Below are positions 18,073 through 31,361 of a stretch of DNA of 46,333 bases, in pieces (the stretch's first letter is position 1; each line of letters opens with the position of its first letter). The stretch comes from an uncultured Candidatus Saccharibacteria bacterium (lineage in GTDB: Bacteria; Patescibacteriota; Saccharimonadia; Saccharimonadales; Saccharimonadaceae): contig CAMNAJ010000003.1 in assembly GCA_946530935.1 (NCBI GenBank), positions 1-46,333 of the forward strand, written 5' to 3'. Made by a program: the position numbers and the translations under genes. The notes beneath the pieces are model-generated. The model did not search any database. It had not been told where the DNA came from and was given only the letters and a program-made list of their open reading frames with translations.

Positions 18073-18257
18073 AGCTAAAACCTCCTTATAATGTGCACCG
18101 CTTTTTATTGAGCGGCTGGGTTATCCCAAGCAACTATTGCTTGGGGGGTTTTATAATTGTAACACAGATTGATAGATAAGTAAACCCCTATAACGGTCTT
18201 GTTTGTTTATTTCAAGATAACTATTAGCGATAGTGTTTACTTGTTCCAAGACCGCTA

Positions 18258-18284
18258 TTGGCGGTCTTGACGTACGAGTGCTAA
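18258..18284 (+). promoter_or_regulatory. CIRCE-like HrcA operator inside the hrcA promoter
   Basis: TTGGCGGTC-N9-GAGTGCTAA; the right half matches the CIRCE half-site exactly, the left half matches 6/9. Lies between/over TTGACG (18267-18272) and TATAAT (18290-18295). Confidence 0.65.
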
Positions 18285-18301
18285 TTTTGTATAATGAAAC
18301 C

Positions 18302-19030
18302 ATGGAAATCACTGAGCGTCAAAAGCAAATATTGTGCCAGATTATAGAGGAATATGCCGAAACCGCATCACCAGTTGGTAGTGTCACCATGGCAAAACTT
18401 TTTGGTGTTTCTCCAGCTACTGTTAGATCCGAAATGGCTCGTCTTGAAGCTCTTGGCCTTATTGCTCAGCCACACACTTCTGCTGGCCGCGTGCCAACAG
18501 ATGCTGGCTACCGCTTTTATGTGAATAATCTTGATGGCTCAGGTAATCAAACTGTCGAATCAGAAACCGAAAGAAATTCTCTCGAGCGTAGCACTCATGC
18601 TCTCGAGGTACGTGTATCATCCCAATCTCGTGCTGATGCCGCAATTCGCGGTGCCGTTGACACTCTTGTCGAACTCACTGGCAATCTTGGTCTCGCTACT
18701 ATTGATGGTCAACTATATCTTTCTGGCATTTCTCGTCTCTTTACCCAACCAGAATTTGGCGACACGCGCCGTGTACAGGCAGTGGCAAAACTCCTTGATA
18801 ATCTTGAGCCTTGGCTTCGTGAGGCAGCCCCAGGCGAAGCATTAAATATCTTTATTGGCCAGGAGAATCCTATTGGTAAAAACTCTGAAGTTTCTCTAAT
18901 CATTTCGAAATTCCGCTCCCCATTCTCTGATCGTAGTTATATTGGCGTCCTCGGTCCAACTCGCCAAAACTACTCCCGCGTCATGGCCCTAGTTCGTCAT
19001 GCCGGCCAAATGCTTGAAGAAATCTTATAA
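18302..19030 (+). CDS. hrcA: Heat-inducible transcription repressor HrcA
   Basis: MEITERQKQILCQIIEEYAETASPVGSVTMAKLFGVSPATVRSEMARLEALGLIAQPHTSAGRVPTDAGYRFYV; followed by grpE. Start moved to the ATG at 18302. Confidence 0.92.
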   Translation: MEITERQKQILCQIIEEYAETASPVGSVTMAKLFGVSPATVRSEMARLEALGLIAQPHTSAGRVPTDAGYRFYVNNLDGSGNQTVESETERNSLERSTHALEVRVSSQSRADAAIRGAVDTLVELTGNLGLATIDGQLYLSGISRLFTQPEFGDTRRVQAVAKLLDNLEPWLREAAPGEALNIFIGQENPIGKNSEVSLIISKFRSPFSDRSYIGVLGPTRQNYSRVMALVRHAGQMLEEIL

Positions 19031-19041
19031 AAGGAGGCTAA

Positions 19042-19497
19042 ATGCATAAAAAAGAATCGCAAAAACCGGAAGCTGTTGAGGCAGCACAAGAAATAGAACA
19101 AAGAATTACTGAACTTACCAATGATCTTCAGCGTACCCGTGCCGATTTCGAAAACTTCCGTAAGCAAACTGAAATTCAAAAGGAAAACGAGAAGAAAGCC
19201 ACTCGTCTTGCCACTGTTTACAAAGTATTGCCTCTTTTAGACGACATCGACCGGGCCATCTCGACCTATGAAGAGCTAAAACCGCTTGAAAAATCCCTTG
19301 AAAAAACCCTAAAAGAGCTAAATCTTGAGAGAATCGATTCAGGCGTCGGCACCGAGTTTAATCCGGATCACCATGAGGCTGTTATGGCCGAAGGAGACGG
19401 GGAAAAAGAAACAGTTTCAGAGACTCTCCGACCAGGCTATTACTATGAAGGAGAAGTACTTCGCCCAGCTATGGTTAAAGTTAAGAGGATATCTTGA
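19042..19497 (+). CDS. grpE: Nucleotide exchange factor GrpE
   Basis: RTRADFENFRKQTEIQKENEKKATRLATVYKVLPLLDDIDRAI...GTEFNPDHHEAV...VLRPAMVKV. Confidence 0.92.
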   Translation: MHKKESQKPEAVEAAQEIEQRITELTNDLQRTRADFENFRKQTEIQKENEKKATRLATVYKVLPLLDDIDRAISTYEELKPLEKSLEKTLKELNLERIDSGVGTEFNPDHHEAVMAEGDGEKETVSETLRPGYYYEGEVLRPAMVKVKRIS

Positions 19498-19548
19498 AAA
19501 ATCACCTCTAAAGTGGTAAAATATATCAAACAGTAGAAAAGGATTTAT

Positions 19549-20214
19549 ATGGCTGAACATAAACTAGTATTAGAAAAACGTGAATTAACTGGGAAAAAAC
19601 TAAAAGCTCTTCGCGAAAAGGGCCTCATTCCGTCAGTTATTTATGGTGGTAAAGATCCAGTGCTTACTGCTTCAGAGTACGTTCCAACCGAAAAAGTACT
19701 TGAAAAAGCTGGTTACCACTCACCAATTGATCTTGATATCGCTGGCAAGAAGCAACTTGCTATCGTTAAAGACATTCATATTGACCCAGTCTCTCGTCGT
19801 ATTATCAATTTAGAGTTCCAGGCAATTAAGGCTAATGAAGTTGTTGAAGCAACTACCCCAATTACTATCGTAAACTTTGAAGCTTCCGATGCTTCTAAGA
19901 TTTACCACTTTGAGATGAATCAGGCTATGGAGGAAATTGATATCAAAGCAAAGCCTGCTGATCTTCCAAACGAGCTTGTTATTGACGCCTCAGCGCTTAA
20001 AGAAGTTGACGACAAAATTACCATTTCTGATCTCGTTCTCCCTAGCGGTGTTGAACTAGCTAACAAAGAACTTGATGAAGAACAAGTAATCGCTTCACTT
20101 TATGACCCAGCCGCTGAAGCTGCAGCTCGTGAAGCTGAAGCTGAAGGAGAGCCAGTTGATGCTGCCGATGTTCCAGCCGACAATGGCACAAAACCAGAAG
20201 AGTCTGCTGAATAA
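19549..20214 (+). CDS. rplY: 50S ribosomal protein L25 (CTC family)
   Basis: LEKRELTGKKLKALREKGLIPSVIYGGKDP...VKDIHIDPVSRRIINLEFQAI. Confidence 0.92.
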   Translation: MAEHKLVLEKRELTGKKLKALREKGLIPSVIYGGKDPVLTASEYVPTEKVLEKAGYHSPIDLDIAGKKQLAIVKDIHIDPVSRRIINLEFQAIKANEVVEATTPITIVNFEASDASKIYHFEMNQAMEEIDIKAKPADLPNELVIDASALKEVDDKITISDLVLPSGVELANKELDEEQVIASLYDPAAEAAAREAEAEGEPVDAADVPADNGTKPEESAE

Positions 20215-20230: not shown

Positions 20231-20258
20231 CTAACCCCCGAAAGGGGGTTATTTTTTT
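20231..20258. terminator. Terminator between convergent rplY and the aldolase fusion gene
   Basis: AACCCCC-GAAA-GGGGGTT followed by ATTTTTTTAT. Confidence 0.8.
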
Positions 20259-22050
20259 ATAATACTTTAGTGTTTTCTATCAGTCTATCTCTAAATGCAG
20301 TACGTGCGGCATCAGCATTGTTGATATCACCGTGCCAAGCATAAAGTGCTGGGTCCTGCAAAGCCCTTGCAAAAGAGAAAGTCACCGCCCAAGGGAACGG
20401 ACCATTCTTTTTAACCTCTGCCAAATTATTGGTAGCTTGTTCAACCGTCTGGCCACCAGAAAGGAATACAACTCCAGCCAGTTCTTCTGGCACGTGATTT
20501 TTTAGCACGTCAGCGGTAGCTTTACCCACTTCTTCTGGGGTTGATTGTACTTCTTGTTTTTTGCCAGCCAGCACCATATTAACTTTCAAAATACACGCCT
20601 CAAGTTTTACGCCGAACTTCTTTAGTTCGCTAAACAGGGAATCAAGGATTCTGCTAGTAACCTCTATGTTCTTTTCAATCGGATAATCCCCGTCATAAAC
20701 TACTTCCGGTTCGACAATTGGCACCAAGCCTGCCGACTGGCAATCCTTGGCATATTCAGCAAGGATATGGCAATTCTCGGTAATCGCGTAATCAGTAGGT
20801 GTTAAAATTTCACCACTATCGGATAAGGTTATATTAAACGCTGCGCGCCACTTTGCAAATCTTAGCCCCATACCATAGTATTCGCGAAGCCTCTCTGGTA
20901 AATCATCTAGACCCTTAGTATAGGTTTCTTCAGAACCTTCAATTTTTTCTAGGCCTTTATCAACTTTAATTCCTGGAATAATCCGCTTTGAAATAAGATA
21001 GTCTACATTAGTCATACCATTATCCGCTTTGTCACGGGCAGTCTCATCAAACAAAATCACACCATTTACGTATTTTTCGAGATCCGGTGTCGTAAAGAAG
21101 ATATTTCTATAATCATGTCTGTTCTCAAAAGTATCTTCAATATTTAGCTCAGCAAATTTCTTTTTGATTGAACCGCCAGACTCGTCTGCTGCAAGAATAC
21201 CTTTTTTCTTAGCAACCAAACTTGCTGCAATCAGCTCAAGGTCTTCCTCTGGCATATTAGCGAGGTTTTTCATTTCATCGAGACTTAATACTGAATCAAG
21301 ATTTGAATTTTCTACATTAACTTTTGCCATCTTTAAGCTTTCTTCCACAGTATTCCCAAGAACAAAACCACCTAACACGGTCGCCGCAATAATTGAATAA
21401 GCCGAAAGATGCGTAAGTTTATCAATCCTATCAATCGTAATTGGCTCTGTAATATCGTGATATGAAATCATGTTTTCAGTGATATAAATCAGATTATTGT
21501 GCTCAATTCCTTCTGCCGACTCCGCAAAAACTAGGTCAGCTCTGTGCATTAACTCTCTAACGTATGGGTCATTATTGTTTTTTACATATAAAACAAATTT
21601 AGTTTCTTTGTGCTCTTCGAGATAAGAAGCAATTCTTTCTGCCGTATCTTGTGACAGATGTGCCGACCTATCAACAAAAACATAATCATACGTTTTTCTT
21701 GGTGTATTGAAAGAAGATATCACATCTTTAGTCGGGGCAAGATATGAAACTCCATCATCTGAAATTAAAATATACCTTCTAAGCGCCGTGTCAACTAATC
21801 TATCACCATCTTCCTTTAAGTCAAAATCAGAAGCCGAAATCTTCGCTTCAATCCCCATCTTTTTCAACACCTCAAGAGAAACCGCGGCGCCACCAAGACT
21901 CGAGTGGCGACTGTAAAAAAAGTGTTCAGATGCATCAAAGCTTACATTCAGCCAAGTTACGTTGTGTTTATCTTTTTCAAAATCCGACGAACGTCCATCA
22001 AGATTAAGATAGACGTCCTTCAGGACATTGCCCACGATCAAAATATTCAT
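20257..22050 (-). CDS. Fusion: N-terminal PfkB/ribokinase-like domain + C-terminal class I fructose-bisphosphate aldolase
   Basis: N-term MNILIVGNVLKDVYLNLDGR...SSLGGAAVSLEVLKKMGIEAKI; C-term KGILAADESGGSIKKKF...GVILFDETARDK...PIVEPEVVYDGDY...LKVNMVLAGKK...AVTFSFARALQDPALYAWHG. Confidence 0.88.
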   Translation of the reverse strand: MNILIVGNVLKDVYLNLDGRSSDFEKDKHNVTWLNVSFDASEHFFYSRHSSLGGAAVSLEVLKKMGIEAKISASDFDLKEDGDRLVDTALRRYILISDDGVSYLAPTKDVISSFNTPRKTYDYVFVDRSAHLSQDTAERIASYLEEHKETKFVLYVKNNNDPYVRELMHRADLVFAESAEGIEHNNLIYITENMISYHDITEPITIDRIDKLTHLSAYSIIAATVLGGFVLGNTVEESLKMAKVNVENSNLDSVLSLDEMKNLANMPEEDLELIAASLVAKKKGILAADESGGSIKKKFAELNIEDTFENRHDYRNIFFTTPDLEKYVNGVILFDETARDKADNGMTNVDYLISKRIIPGIKVDKGLEKIEGSEETYTKGLDDLPERLREYYGMGLRFAKWRAAFNITLSDSGEILTPTDYAITENCHILAEYAKDCQSAGLVPIVEPEVVYDGDYPIEKNIEVTSRILDSLFSELKKFGVKLEACILKVNMVLAGKKQEVQSTPEEVGKATADVLKNHVPEELAGVVFLSGGQTVEQATNNLAEVKKNGPFPWAVTFSFARALQDPALYAWHGDINNADAARTAFRDRLIENTKVL

Positions 22051-22057
22051 GCTTATA

Positions 22058-22822
22058 TTATATCACACCAAGAATACCGCGTAGTGCGAATGCGGTGTCT
22101 TCGTGATTGCGCACCGTAATTGTATCAATCCCCATTTGTACAACAGGGTAATCATTGCCGCCAGGTTGTGTCATATCGCCAAAGTATAAGACATCAGATT
22201 TTTCAACCTTGAGTTCCTCTAATAGATGCGTCATACCAAAAGTTTTATTCATTCCAGGAGTAATTGCATTAATAGAAGTTGTTCCGCCTATCTCGTAATC
22301 AAACTCTGGTGCTAGTTCCTTACATCTTTTTACAATCTGTTCACGTTTTTTATGATCTGGATCCCATGCGTACTTCTCCTCCGTACCAGCGCTCTGCCCA
22401 AGTGCCGAGAAAGTAACTTGCGAAAGACGGTTCTCGATTATTTCATCACCCGGTTTTAGTTTATCCTCTTCCCAATAACCAAGTTCTTTTGCAGATTGCT
22501 CAATTGTTGCGGAAATCTTAGCGACCTGCTCCTCAGTTAGTGGATAACTATATACCTGCTCCCAATCACTTTTCTCGACATTAAAGCGATAATACTGTGT
22601 ACCTTGTGCTACAAAAAGATGTAAATGGCTTAAAAGTTCCGGAGAAGGGTTAGGCAACCGATTTACAATTTGAATCAAGAATTGGTCAAATTTTTGGCCG
22701 GAAATTGGGCAAATCTCGAATTTTTCTAAACACTTTGTCAGTAATTCCGCGATTTCATCGGTAATTGGCGTTTTAGCCACATTTAATGTTTGGTCAATAT
22801 CGAATGCTAGAACTTTTTTCAT
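22058..22822 (-). CDS. HAD-superfamily phosphomannomutase of the eukaryotic PMM type
   Basis: FDIDQTL DxDxT motif; ENRLSQVTFSALGQSAGTEEKYAWDPDHKKREQIVKRC; YEIGGTTSINAITPGMNKTFGMTHLLEE; YFGDMTQPGGNDYPV matches the PMM signature. Confidence 0.8.
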   Translation of the reverse strand: MKKVLAFDIDQTLNVAKTPITDEIAELLTKCLEKFEICPISGQKFDQFLIQIVNRLPNPSPELLSHLHLFVAQGTQYYRFNVEKSDWEQVYSYPLTEEQVAKISATIEQSAKELGYWEEDKLKPGDEIIENRLSQVTFSALGQSAGTEEKYAWDPDHKKREQIVKRCKELAPEFDYEIGGTTSINAITPGMNKTFGMTHLLEELKVEKSDVLYFGDMTQPGGNDYPVVQMGIDTITVRNHEDTAFALRGILGVI

Positions 22823-22852
22823 GATTTCATTATAGCATGATATAATTAAGAC

Positions 22853-23623
22853 ATGAAATCATATATTGTGGGCAACTGGAAGCTGAATTTTACGGTCGGC
22901 GAAGCTTCTATCTATCTTCATAAACTCCAAAAGAAAATACCAAATTATCGTGATGTTGAGGTCATAGTTGCGCCAAGCGCACTAGCCCTTCAAACTTTAT
23001 CTCTTCAAATAGACCGTCACAAAATGAAACTCGCTGCTCAAAACGCTTATCATCGTGATTACGGTGCATTTACTGGCGAAATTTCATTCTCACAACTTCG
23101 TGGTATAGCAGATTATTGTATCATCGGCCACTCCGAACGCCGTTATATCTTTCGTGAAGATGACAAGGTTATTCAAAAGAAAGTCGAAGCCGCTGTCCGC
23201 AATAAAATCACACCAATCCTATGTGTTGGCGAGACCGAATCCGAACGTGCTTTTGGTGAAACAGCCGACGTAATTCGTGATCAAGTTATCGGTGGTTTAG
23301 CTGAAGTATCAGAAGAAGATATCGATAAAGTTATCATCGCTTATGAGCCAGTCTGGGCTATTTCTAGTACGAAATCCGCTAAACTAGCTGCCCCAGATGA
23401 AATTGCCGAAGTCGTAAAACTTATCCGCAAGATTTTGAAAGATGCCTACGGTGAAAAAACCGCCGAGAATGTACCAATCCTCTTTGGCGGTAGTGTCAAC
23501 CCTTCGAATGCTGGCGCTTATCTTACCGTGCCAGGCGTAAACGGCCTCCTTGTCGGCGGCTCTAGCTTGATTCTTACCGAGTTTGCTGATATAATCGAGG
23601 TAGCAAAAAGAGTGAAATCATGA
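22853..23623 (+). CDS. tpiA: Triosephosphate isomerase
   Basis: VGNWKLN, IGHSERR, AYEPVWAI, LFGGSVNPSNA motifs. Confidence 0.97.
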   Translation: MKSYIVGNWKLNFTVGEASIYLHKLQKKIPNYRDVEVIVAPSALALQTLSLQIDRHKMKLAAQNAYHRDYGAFTGEISFSQLRGIADYCIIGHSERRYIFREDDKVIQKKVEAAVRNKITPILCVGETESERAFGETADVIRDQVIGGLAEVSEEDIDKVIIAYEPVWAISSTKSAKLAAPDEIAEVVKLIRKILKDAYGEKTAENVPILFGGSVNPSNAGAYLTVPGVNGLLVGGSSLILTEFADIIEVAKRVKS

Positions 23624-30729: not shown

Positions 30730-31344
30730 TTATTTTGCTTCTGAGAAATTTTTAAATTGTTCACTGAGATTATCTAAACTCTTAAACGAAGCATTCAAAA
30801 AATCCTTGTACGATTGATCACTCACCGCACCATAGATAGTTTTCATCTCCGTTTGAATTAGAGAAATCTCAGACGACATCTTGGCTGCAAAGATACGGTC
30901 AAGCATCCCGTTAATCTTTGCTTCAAATAACTCATTATGAAGCTCTTGTTGAGATGCTTCAAACTTTGCTTTGGTTTTCTTATTTTCAGAACCACTCTTA
31001 TAGGAATATTTAGTCGTGATATATTTAGTAAGCTCGCTATTCGTATTAGAAAGAACTGTGTTCAAAGACGCACCGTTCGCTCTTAAACCAGAGTTTTTAA
31101 TGTAAGGTTGGAAGTTAGTAATCTCCTGAGTTGTGCCATCAAGATGAAGCTTAAGTGCTACAGATAAGTCTTTTGCGCTCTTTTTATTGCCACCCACAAT
31201 TGAACCAAAAATAATAATACCAATTACTGCTACCACCCCAATCAATGCTATTTTAAAAATCGGTGAAGAAAGTAGTCCTGATTTTGGTGCCTTTGGTGGG
31301 CGAACATTATTAGAGATTTGCGAGAGATACTCTTGTTGGTTCAT
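30730..31344 (-). CDS. Hypothetical single-TM protein
   Basis: 204 aa ORF with FKIALIGVVAVIGIIIFGSIVGG TM; leaderless promoter shared with dnaG. Confidence 0.7.
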   Translation of the reverse strand: MNQQEYLSQISNNVRPPKAPKSGLLSSPIFKIALIGVVAVIGIIIFGSIVGGNKKSAKDLSVALKLHLDGTTQEITNFQPYIKNSGLRANGASLNTVLSNTNSELTKYITTKYSYKSGSENKKTKAKFEASQQELHNELFEAKINGMLDRIFAAKMSSEISLIQTEMKTIYGAVSDQSYKDFLNASFKSLDNLSEQFKNFSEAK

Positions 31345-31361
31345 GCTATAATTATACCATG
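31342..31361. promoter_or_regulatory. Divergent promoter with overlapping palindromic -10 (TATAATTATA)
   Basis: CATGCTATAATTATACCATG: TGC-TATAAT-N6-ATG on + and TGG-TATAAT-N6-ATG on -. Confidence 0.7.

Follow-up and report, generated by a model that had tools for sequence, protein, structure and literature searches.

A PfkB-derived pseudokinase fused to a class I FBP aldolase in Saccharibacteria is retained under selection where the aldolase is eroded or lost

The DNA stretch analysed here (the window; 46,333 nucleotides, positions 1 to 46,333 of contig CAMNAJ010000003.1 from an uncultured Candidatus Saccharibacteria bacterium) carries on its minus strand (20257..22050) an open reading frame of 597 amino acids, with an ATG start, in which a pseudokinase is fused to a class I FBP aldolase, an enzyme of glycolysis. 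Saccharibacteria are very small bacteria that depend on a host. In genera g1 and g32 of this family the pseudokinase domain is under strong purifying selection on its own account, independently of the aldolase to which it is fused, and the dead kinase very probably serves a function in its own right. What we propose, tentatively and with slightly less than an even chance of being right, is a metabolite-sensing pseudokinase that arose from a PfkB-aldolase fusion, is selected independently, has survived the loss of the enzyme in several lineages and, in one lineage, overlaps the gene of a non-homologous (class II) aldolase. No report of a pseudokinase-class I FBA fusion with such a history was found in the open-access papers searched.

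The N-terminal domain (residues 1-265; 21256..22050, minus strand) has no credible Pfam or NCBIfam family match and no PDB sequence match, even when searched as a profile. Against Pfam PF00294 the window domain gives no match at E <= 1 and the best of 29 members reaches only E 0.19, so that any relation to PfkB is invisible to ordinary profiles. Profile searches of the domain alone being uninformative, its origin is revealed solely by structure and by sequences from sister genera. An AlphaFold2 model built from a 29-sequence alignment (pLDDT 84.9, pTM 0.85) matched ribokinase, ketohexokinase and PfkB structures in Foldseek, with a PfkB-type PFK among the best (top E 7e-11, probability 1.00; 246 matches at E <= 0.001), and hhalign aligned the window-type domain with intact PfkB kinases, both the g30 and g127 fusions and the unfused g34 kinases, over 264 columns (E 9.8e-17). 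The modelled domain is thus of the ribokinase/PfkB fold. A reading of the sequence alone had described the protein as a PfkB-like domain with a degraded kinase motif fused to a class I aldolase, and had named structure prediction as the check on its N-terminal part; both the fold and the fusion are as it described them.

Where DTxGAGD would be expected, residues 211-221 read KLTHLSAYSII, as that reading had noticed (degraded site DKLTHLSAYSII, residues 210-221, 21388..21423, minus strand). T213, H214, L215 and S219 are invariant across 29 relatives, which argues that the kinase motif was replaced and then conserved rather than randomly decayed. The conserved replacement for GAGD is THLxxYS, and in the window protein (THLSAYS) the position of the catalytic Asp is occupied by Ser; throughout g1 and g32 the motif is mostly THLxxxS, with Ser at the catalytic position in most members examined. 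In these two genera the nucleotide segment (the VxxTDGxxG strand and the neighbouring helix) is deleted, while it is partly kept in the g105 and g132 intermediates, and by alignment the domain also lacks the sugar-binding Asn region and the anion-hole glycines of PfkB kinases. Other residues were gained or fixed along with this decay (R92, D127-R128-S129, T213-H214-L215 and S219). The first kinase motif, VGNVLKDVYL (residues 6-15; 22006..22035, minus strand), aligns with GDIVTDAFI of the intact kinases and retains its Asp, D12, with G7, N8, D12, Y14 and L15 all invariant. Also invariant is an ExDxxxxxWxxxxF stretch (E25, D27, W33, F38), whose counterpart in the alignment is the insert that comes after the first motif in the intact kinase. 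Several of the residues gained or fixed with the decay sit at old active-site motifs and, judging from the kinase alignment, would line one cleft. ATP-dependent phosphotransfer by a domain of this sequence is very unlikely.

The C-terminal half (residues 271-593; 20272..21240, minus strand) matches PF00274 at E 8.9e-104 (347 bits, cut-off 22) and the NCBIfam equivalog NF033379 at 385 bits (cut-off 250). All catalytic residues checked by alignment are present, namely D289, K362, K400, R402, E447, E449, R562 and the Schiff-base lysine K489 (codon 20584..20586, minus strand), in line with the earlier claim that the class I motifs are kept, and this half is predicted to be an intact class I FBP aldolase. 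The alignment runs as far as residue 335 of the 363 in the rabbit enzyme, and three more residues follow in the fusion protein, which ends about 28 short and lacks the C-terminal tail with its Tyr, as found in vertebrate aldolases. It is by this absence, and by the 265 residues of pseudokinase in front, that the protein differs from a usual class I FBP aldolase, its C-terminal half otherwise resembling the NF033379 family. A full-length AlphaFold2 model (pTM 0.61) does not reliably place the two halves with respect to each other.

Seven nucleotides upstream of the fusion lies a gene for a HAD-IIB hydrolase (PMM-like; 22058..22822, minus strand), followed by a divergent triosephosphate isomerase gene (22853..23623, plus strand), both identified by Pfam and NCBIfam profiles. 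About half of the loci checked have the hydrolase gene close to the fusion. We considered these two genes as functional parts of the system and left them as neighbours, since their adjacency to the fusion is not constant. The HrcA, GrpE and bL25 genes (18233-20214) are convergent to the fusion gene and often lie near it in relatives; a bidirectional terminator-like hairpin (20232..20251, no strand assigned, consensus match only) may be common to the bL25 gene and the fusion. An extended -10-like site, TGATATAAT (22057..22065, minus strand), ends 6 nt before the ATG and, as a match to consensus, is a possible leaderless promoter. A TGnTATAAT ending exactly 6 nt before the start codon occurs at 11 of the 38 window ORFs checked (for example at 22057-22065 on the minus strand and at 22838-22846 and 31344-31352 on the plus strand), a placement suggesting that leaderless transcripts, with +1 at the ATG, are widespread.

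The fusion is found in dozens of independent assemblies and is therefore no assembly artefact. When named genomes were scanned for the N-terminal domain, 80 loci were kept, nearly all from Saccharibacteria (including Candidatus Nanosyncoccus alces), and at most of them the domain is fused to aldolase. Whether the fusion is lineage-wide, a check proposed at the outset, was addressed along with the other questions of genome content by family searches on sampled genomes: the protein has a match in 33 of 35 same-genus relatives, and within the family sample the fused form is again the rule in g32 and occurs in g28, g111, g112 and g105 as well. Long fused frames were seen only in this family in a phylum-wide sample; elsewhere in that sample class I aldolase and PfkB kinases are encoded separately, by genes that in some genomes are neighbours by coordinates (G458, G480, G583, G627 and G661).

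In sister genera g30 and g127 the kinase half of this fusion is still intact, the frames being 669-708 amino acids long; one of them, L176, matches PF00294 at 120 bits and has both the ITDG strand and DRTGAGDAF. A series of decay can be followed from L176-L180, in which DRTGAGDAF is intact, through L181, L192 and L193, which keep the VVV.DG strand and have GAGD replaced, to the short forms devoid of that strand. The intermediate forms belong to g105 and g132 and no longer match PF00294. With an intact fused kinase in sister genera and two intermediate genera, it follows that the kinase died after the fusion took place. In the kinase tree all decayed forms sit on a single branch (SH-aLRT 100, 3.0 changes per column) and the g30 and g34 kinases on short ones; branches among the decayed forms are long, as the tree program itself flags, and leave the deep order of decay uncertain. 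The placement of g28 is likewise uncertain in the class I aldolase tree.

The family has two PfkB paralogues to consider as ancestors, PfkB1 and PfkB2, the latter being the kind of kinase found in the fusions. These are clearly related to each other (E 2e-33), but hhalign gave no significant match between the domain and the PfkB1 alignment; as the domain matches the PfkB2 type and not PfkB1, descent of the pseudokinase from PfkB2 is supported by these alignments. Two unfused intact PfkB2 kinases (L194:880-2406 and L214:1003-2502) have an extra N-terminal part of about 170 amino acids, for which, in L194, no Pfam or NCBIfam family match was found.

The aldolase has been eroded or lost in several independent lineages, at least five: the tree of aldolase states needs nine changes, of which at least five are forced by well-supported branches. 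The domain stands alone at L196, L200, L201, L202, L203 and in the g132 pair L192/L193, and is followed by an eroded aldolase at L197, L198, L199, L208 and L063 (L082, L093 and L085 are duplicate contigs of L201, L196 and L208, respectively). None of four searched genomes with eroded or absent aldolase has an intact PF00274 gene elsewhere. The domain itself is preserved, with 20-21 of 21 invariant residues kept in ten g1 and g32 proteins whose aldolase is eroded or absent. Divergence between the aldolase-less L196 and L200 is saturated at synonymous sites (pS 0.77) with pN at 0.08, and in the eroded-aldolase pair L197/L199 the pseudokinase part has a dN/dS of 0.07; such ratios could be estimated for few pairs, most being saturated. 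For fused pairs, pN is 0.14-0.27 in the pseudokinase versus 0.09-0.15 in the aldolase. The domain's retention under purifying selection in genomes with an eroded or missing aldolase means that it must do more than regulate the fused aldolase. The idea of a sugar-phosphate sensor regulating the aldolase, one of the two offered in the sequence-only reading, therefore survives in modified form. The independent role is firm for g1 and g32 only, as the domain keeps just 9-16 of the 21 residues in g28, g111, g112 and the g105 and g132 intermediates.

Eroded aldolase remnants, seen in the C-terminal parts of L197:2017-3333 and L199:1635-2936, have lost most catalytic residues; their dN/dS is still about 0.12, and their last part is an Ala/Ser-rich tail. 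In G346, a g32 genome, a class II FBA gene starts within the last codons of a stand-alone pseudokinase gene (L202:1513-3355), overlapping its 3' end and standing where the fused class I domain would be. Genomes of g1 with lost or eroded aldolase more often have no detected PfkB gene (3/8 versus 3/62 of the others; Fisher p 0.017) or no detected PGI-like gene (3/8 versus 1/62; Fisher p 0.004), in a hand tally of the g1 genomes of the family sample that ignores kinship (G005 and G429, for instance, are closely related).

The window's genome, which is 83% complete, has no canonical PFK (PF00365); in the order, three of 149 genomes have one, none of them in the genus sampled. The suggestion that 6-phosphofructokinase is missing thus holds for the canonical enzyme, here and in nearly all of the order, but the genome does contain one intact PfkB kinase, PfkB1 (locus L001, with TGAGD), adjoining genes which by eye resemble rpe and rpiB. 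PF00294 genes typically number one per genome in the decayed genera and two in g30, and PfkB1 and PfkB2 can be adjacent. Going by coordinates, the PfkB1 counterpart in sister genera has class II FBA and transketolase nearby (e.g. G157 and G313), and in one genome from another family of the order PfkB2 adjoins a gene resembling class II FBA by sequence. For TM7x, a 'ribokinase' that shares an operon with FBA has been put forward as the PFK (PMC12815258); it is likely the PfkB1 counterpart. PfkB1 is accordingly a candidate PFK, and any phosphofructokinase activity in the cell is more likely to come from it than from the fusion; a complete lack of PFK in the decayed clade is not claimed here. Searches of the family sample picked up transketolase (PF00456) in g30, in g127 and in most of the other genera, and in none of the genomes of g1, g32, g28, g111, g112, g105 or g132; class II FBA (PF01116) has the same distribution, with G346 the single exception. 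Kinase decay in the sampled family thus coincides with the absence of transketolase and of the usual class II aldolase. The decayed genera also commonly have a divergent PGI-like gene.

To the general reading that the pseudokinase was reused as a ligand-binding regulatory module, binding an anionic ligand and acting allosterically or by recruiting a partner, mostly while tethered to aldolase, we give about an even chance. The kinase line leading to the present clade lost the nucleotide-binding segment, the anion hole and the catalytic Asp and fixed a new invariant set, which would leave the old substrate cleft with three conserved basic residues (R92, R128 and H214) and no ATP site. A small anion, plausibly a sugar phosphate, may bind in this cleft and not be phosphorylated there, and the domain could act as an allosteric or partner-recruiting module, tethered to aldolase in most species. 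The main rival, which we hold to be unlikely, is a structural role: the domain would keep the dimerising lid of PfkB and either assemble the aldolase or, paired with PfkB1 as an inactive subunit, hold kinase and aldolase together, with no small ligand involved. The invariance of ExDxxxxxWxxxxF, in the insert after the first motif, speaks for such a scaffold, as do the relatedness of PfkB1 to the fused kinase and its presence in most of the genus. Many of the invariants, however, fall at old active-site motifs and not just in the lid, and the domain persists without aldolase and, in G005, G429 and G448, without a detected PF00294 gene, so that neither partner can be the sole reason for its retention.

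New catalysis, with D12, D127, R128, T213, H214 and S219 forming an active site for some reaction other than ATP-dependent phosphorylation, is somewhat less probable than a scaffold; strong purifying selection on a fixed set of polar, catalytic-type residues would fit it, but this is purely suggestive, no matching family has such a function and the ancestral chemistry requires the very nucleotide segment that is deleted. The domain evolves faster than the aldolase in fused pairs and is poorly conserved in g28, g111 and g112, as would be expected of a decaying passenger kept merely because the fused aldolase would fold poorly without it. This may apply to g28 and g111 and is hard to hold for g1 and g32, where the domain is kept alone or with an eroded aldolase, its invariants intact, and has few amino acid changes despite saturated synonymous divergence; overall we consider it improbable. 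Most improbable of all is that the domain is still a phosphofructokinase, with a rearranged active site, channelling FBP to the aldolase. Such a diverged PFK was the other possibility raised from the sequence, and it could draw on descent from an intact aldolase-fused kinase and on the absence of a PF00365 enzyme. With the catalytic Asp changed to Ser, the anion-hole glycines replaced and the adenine-binding segment gone, with an intact PfkB1 in the same genome and with the domain kept in genomes that have no aldolase to channel to, this proposal fails for the window's protein; the kinase-intact fusion occurs instead in g30 and g127.

PfkB fusions with other aldolases and regulatory carbohydrate-kinase folds are already known. 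NF047869 (5-dehydro-2-deoxygluconokinase/DKGP aldolase) and NF041633 (KDPG aldolase/sugar kinase) are likewise fusions of a PfkB-family kinase with an aldolase, but are named for other aldolases; the intact sister kinases match both weakly, far under cut-off, and the window protein matches neither at E <= 1. With PF00294 kinases, especially PfkB2 of sister Saccharibacteria, the window domain shares fold and descent, but not GAGD, the sugar-binding Asn region or the nucleotide segment. In plant FLN1 and FLN2, which are PfkB-type and belong to the plastid RNA polymerase, and in yeast Gal3p, a galactokinase-like sensor, a carbohydrate-kinase fold serves regulation or structure and is not directly catalytic (PMC3409070). 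Like such regulators (FLN1, Gal3p), the window domain has lost its kinase motifs while the fold is retained and selected; unlike it, they have unrelated partners and pathways and no aldolase fusion, and Gal3p still binds ATP.

For glycolysis in Saccharibacteria, which runs without canonical PFK, these results mean that the tempting 'hidden PFK' of this clade is dead, and they point to PfkB1 instead. They also place within one bacterial family a graded series, uncommon for metabolic enzymes, from intact fusion through intermediates to conserved pseudokinase, and provide a case of a dead enzyme domain outlasting the live one once fused to it.
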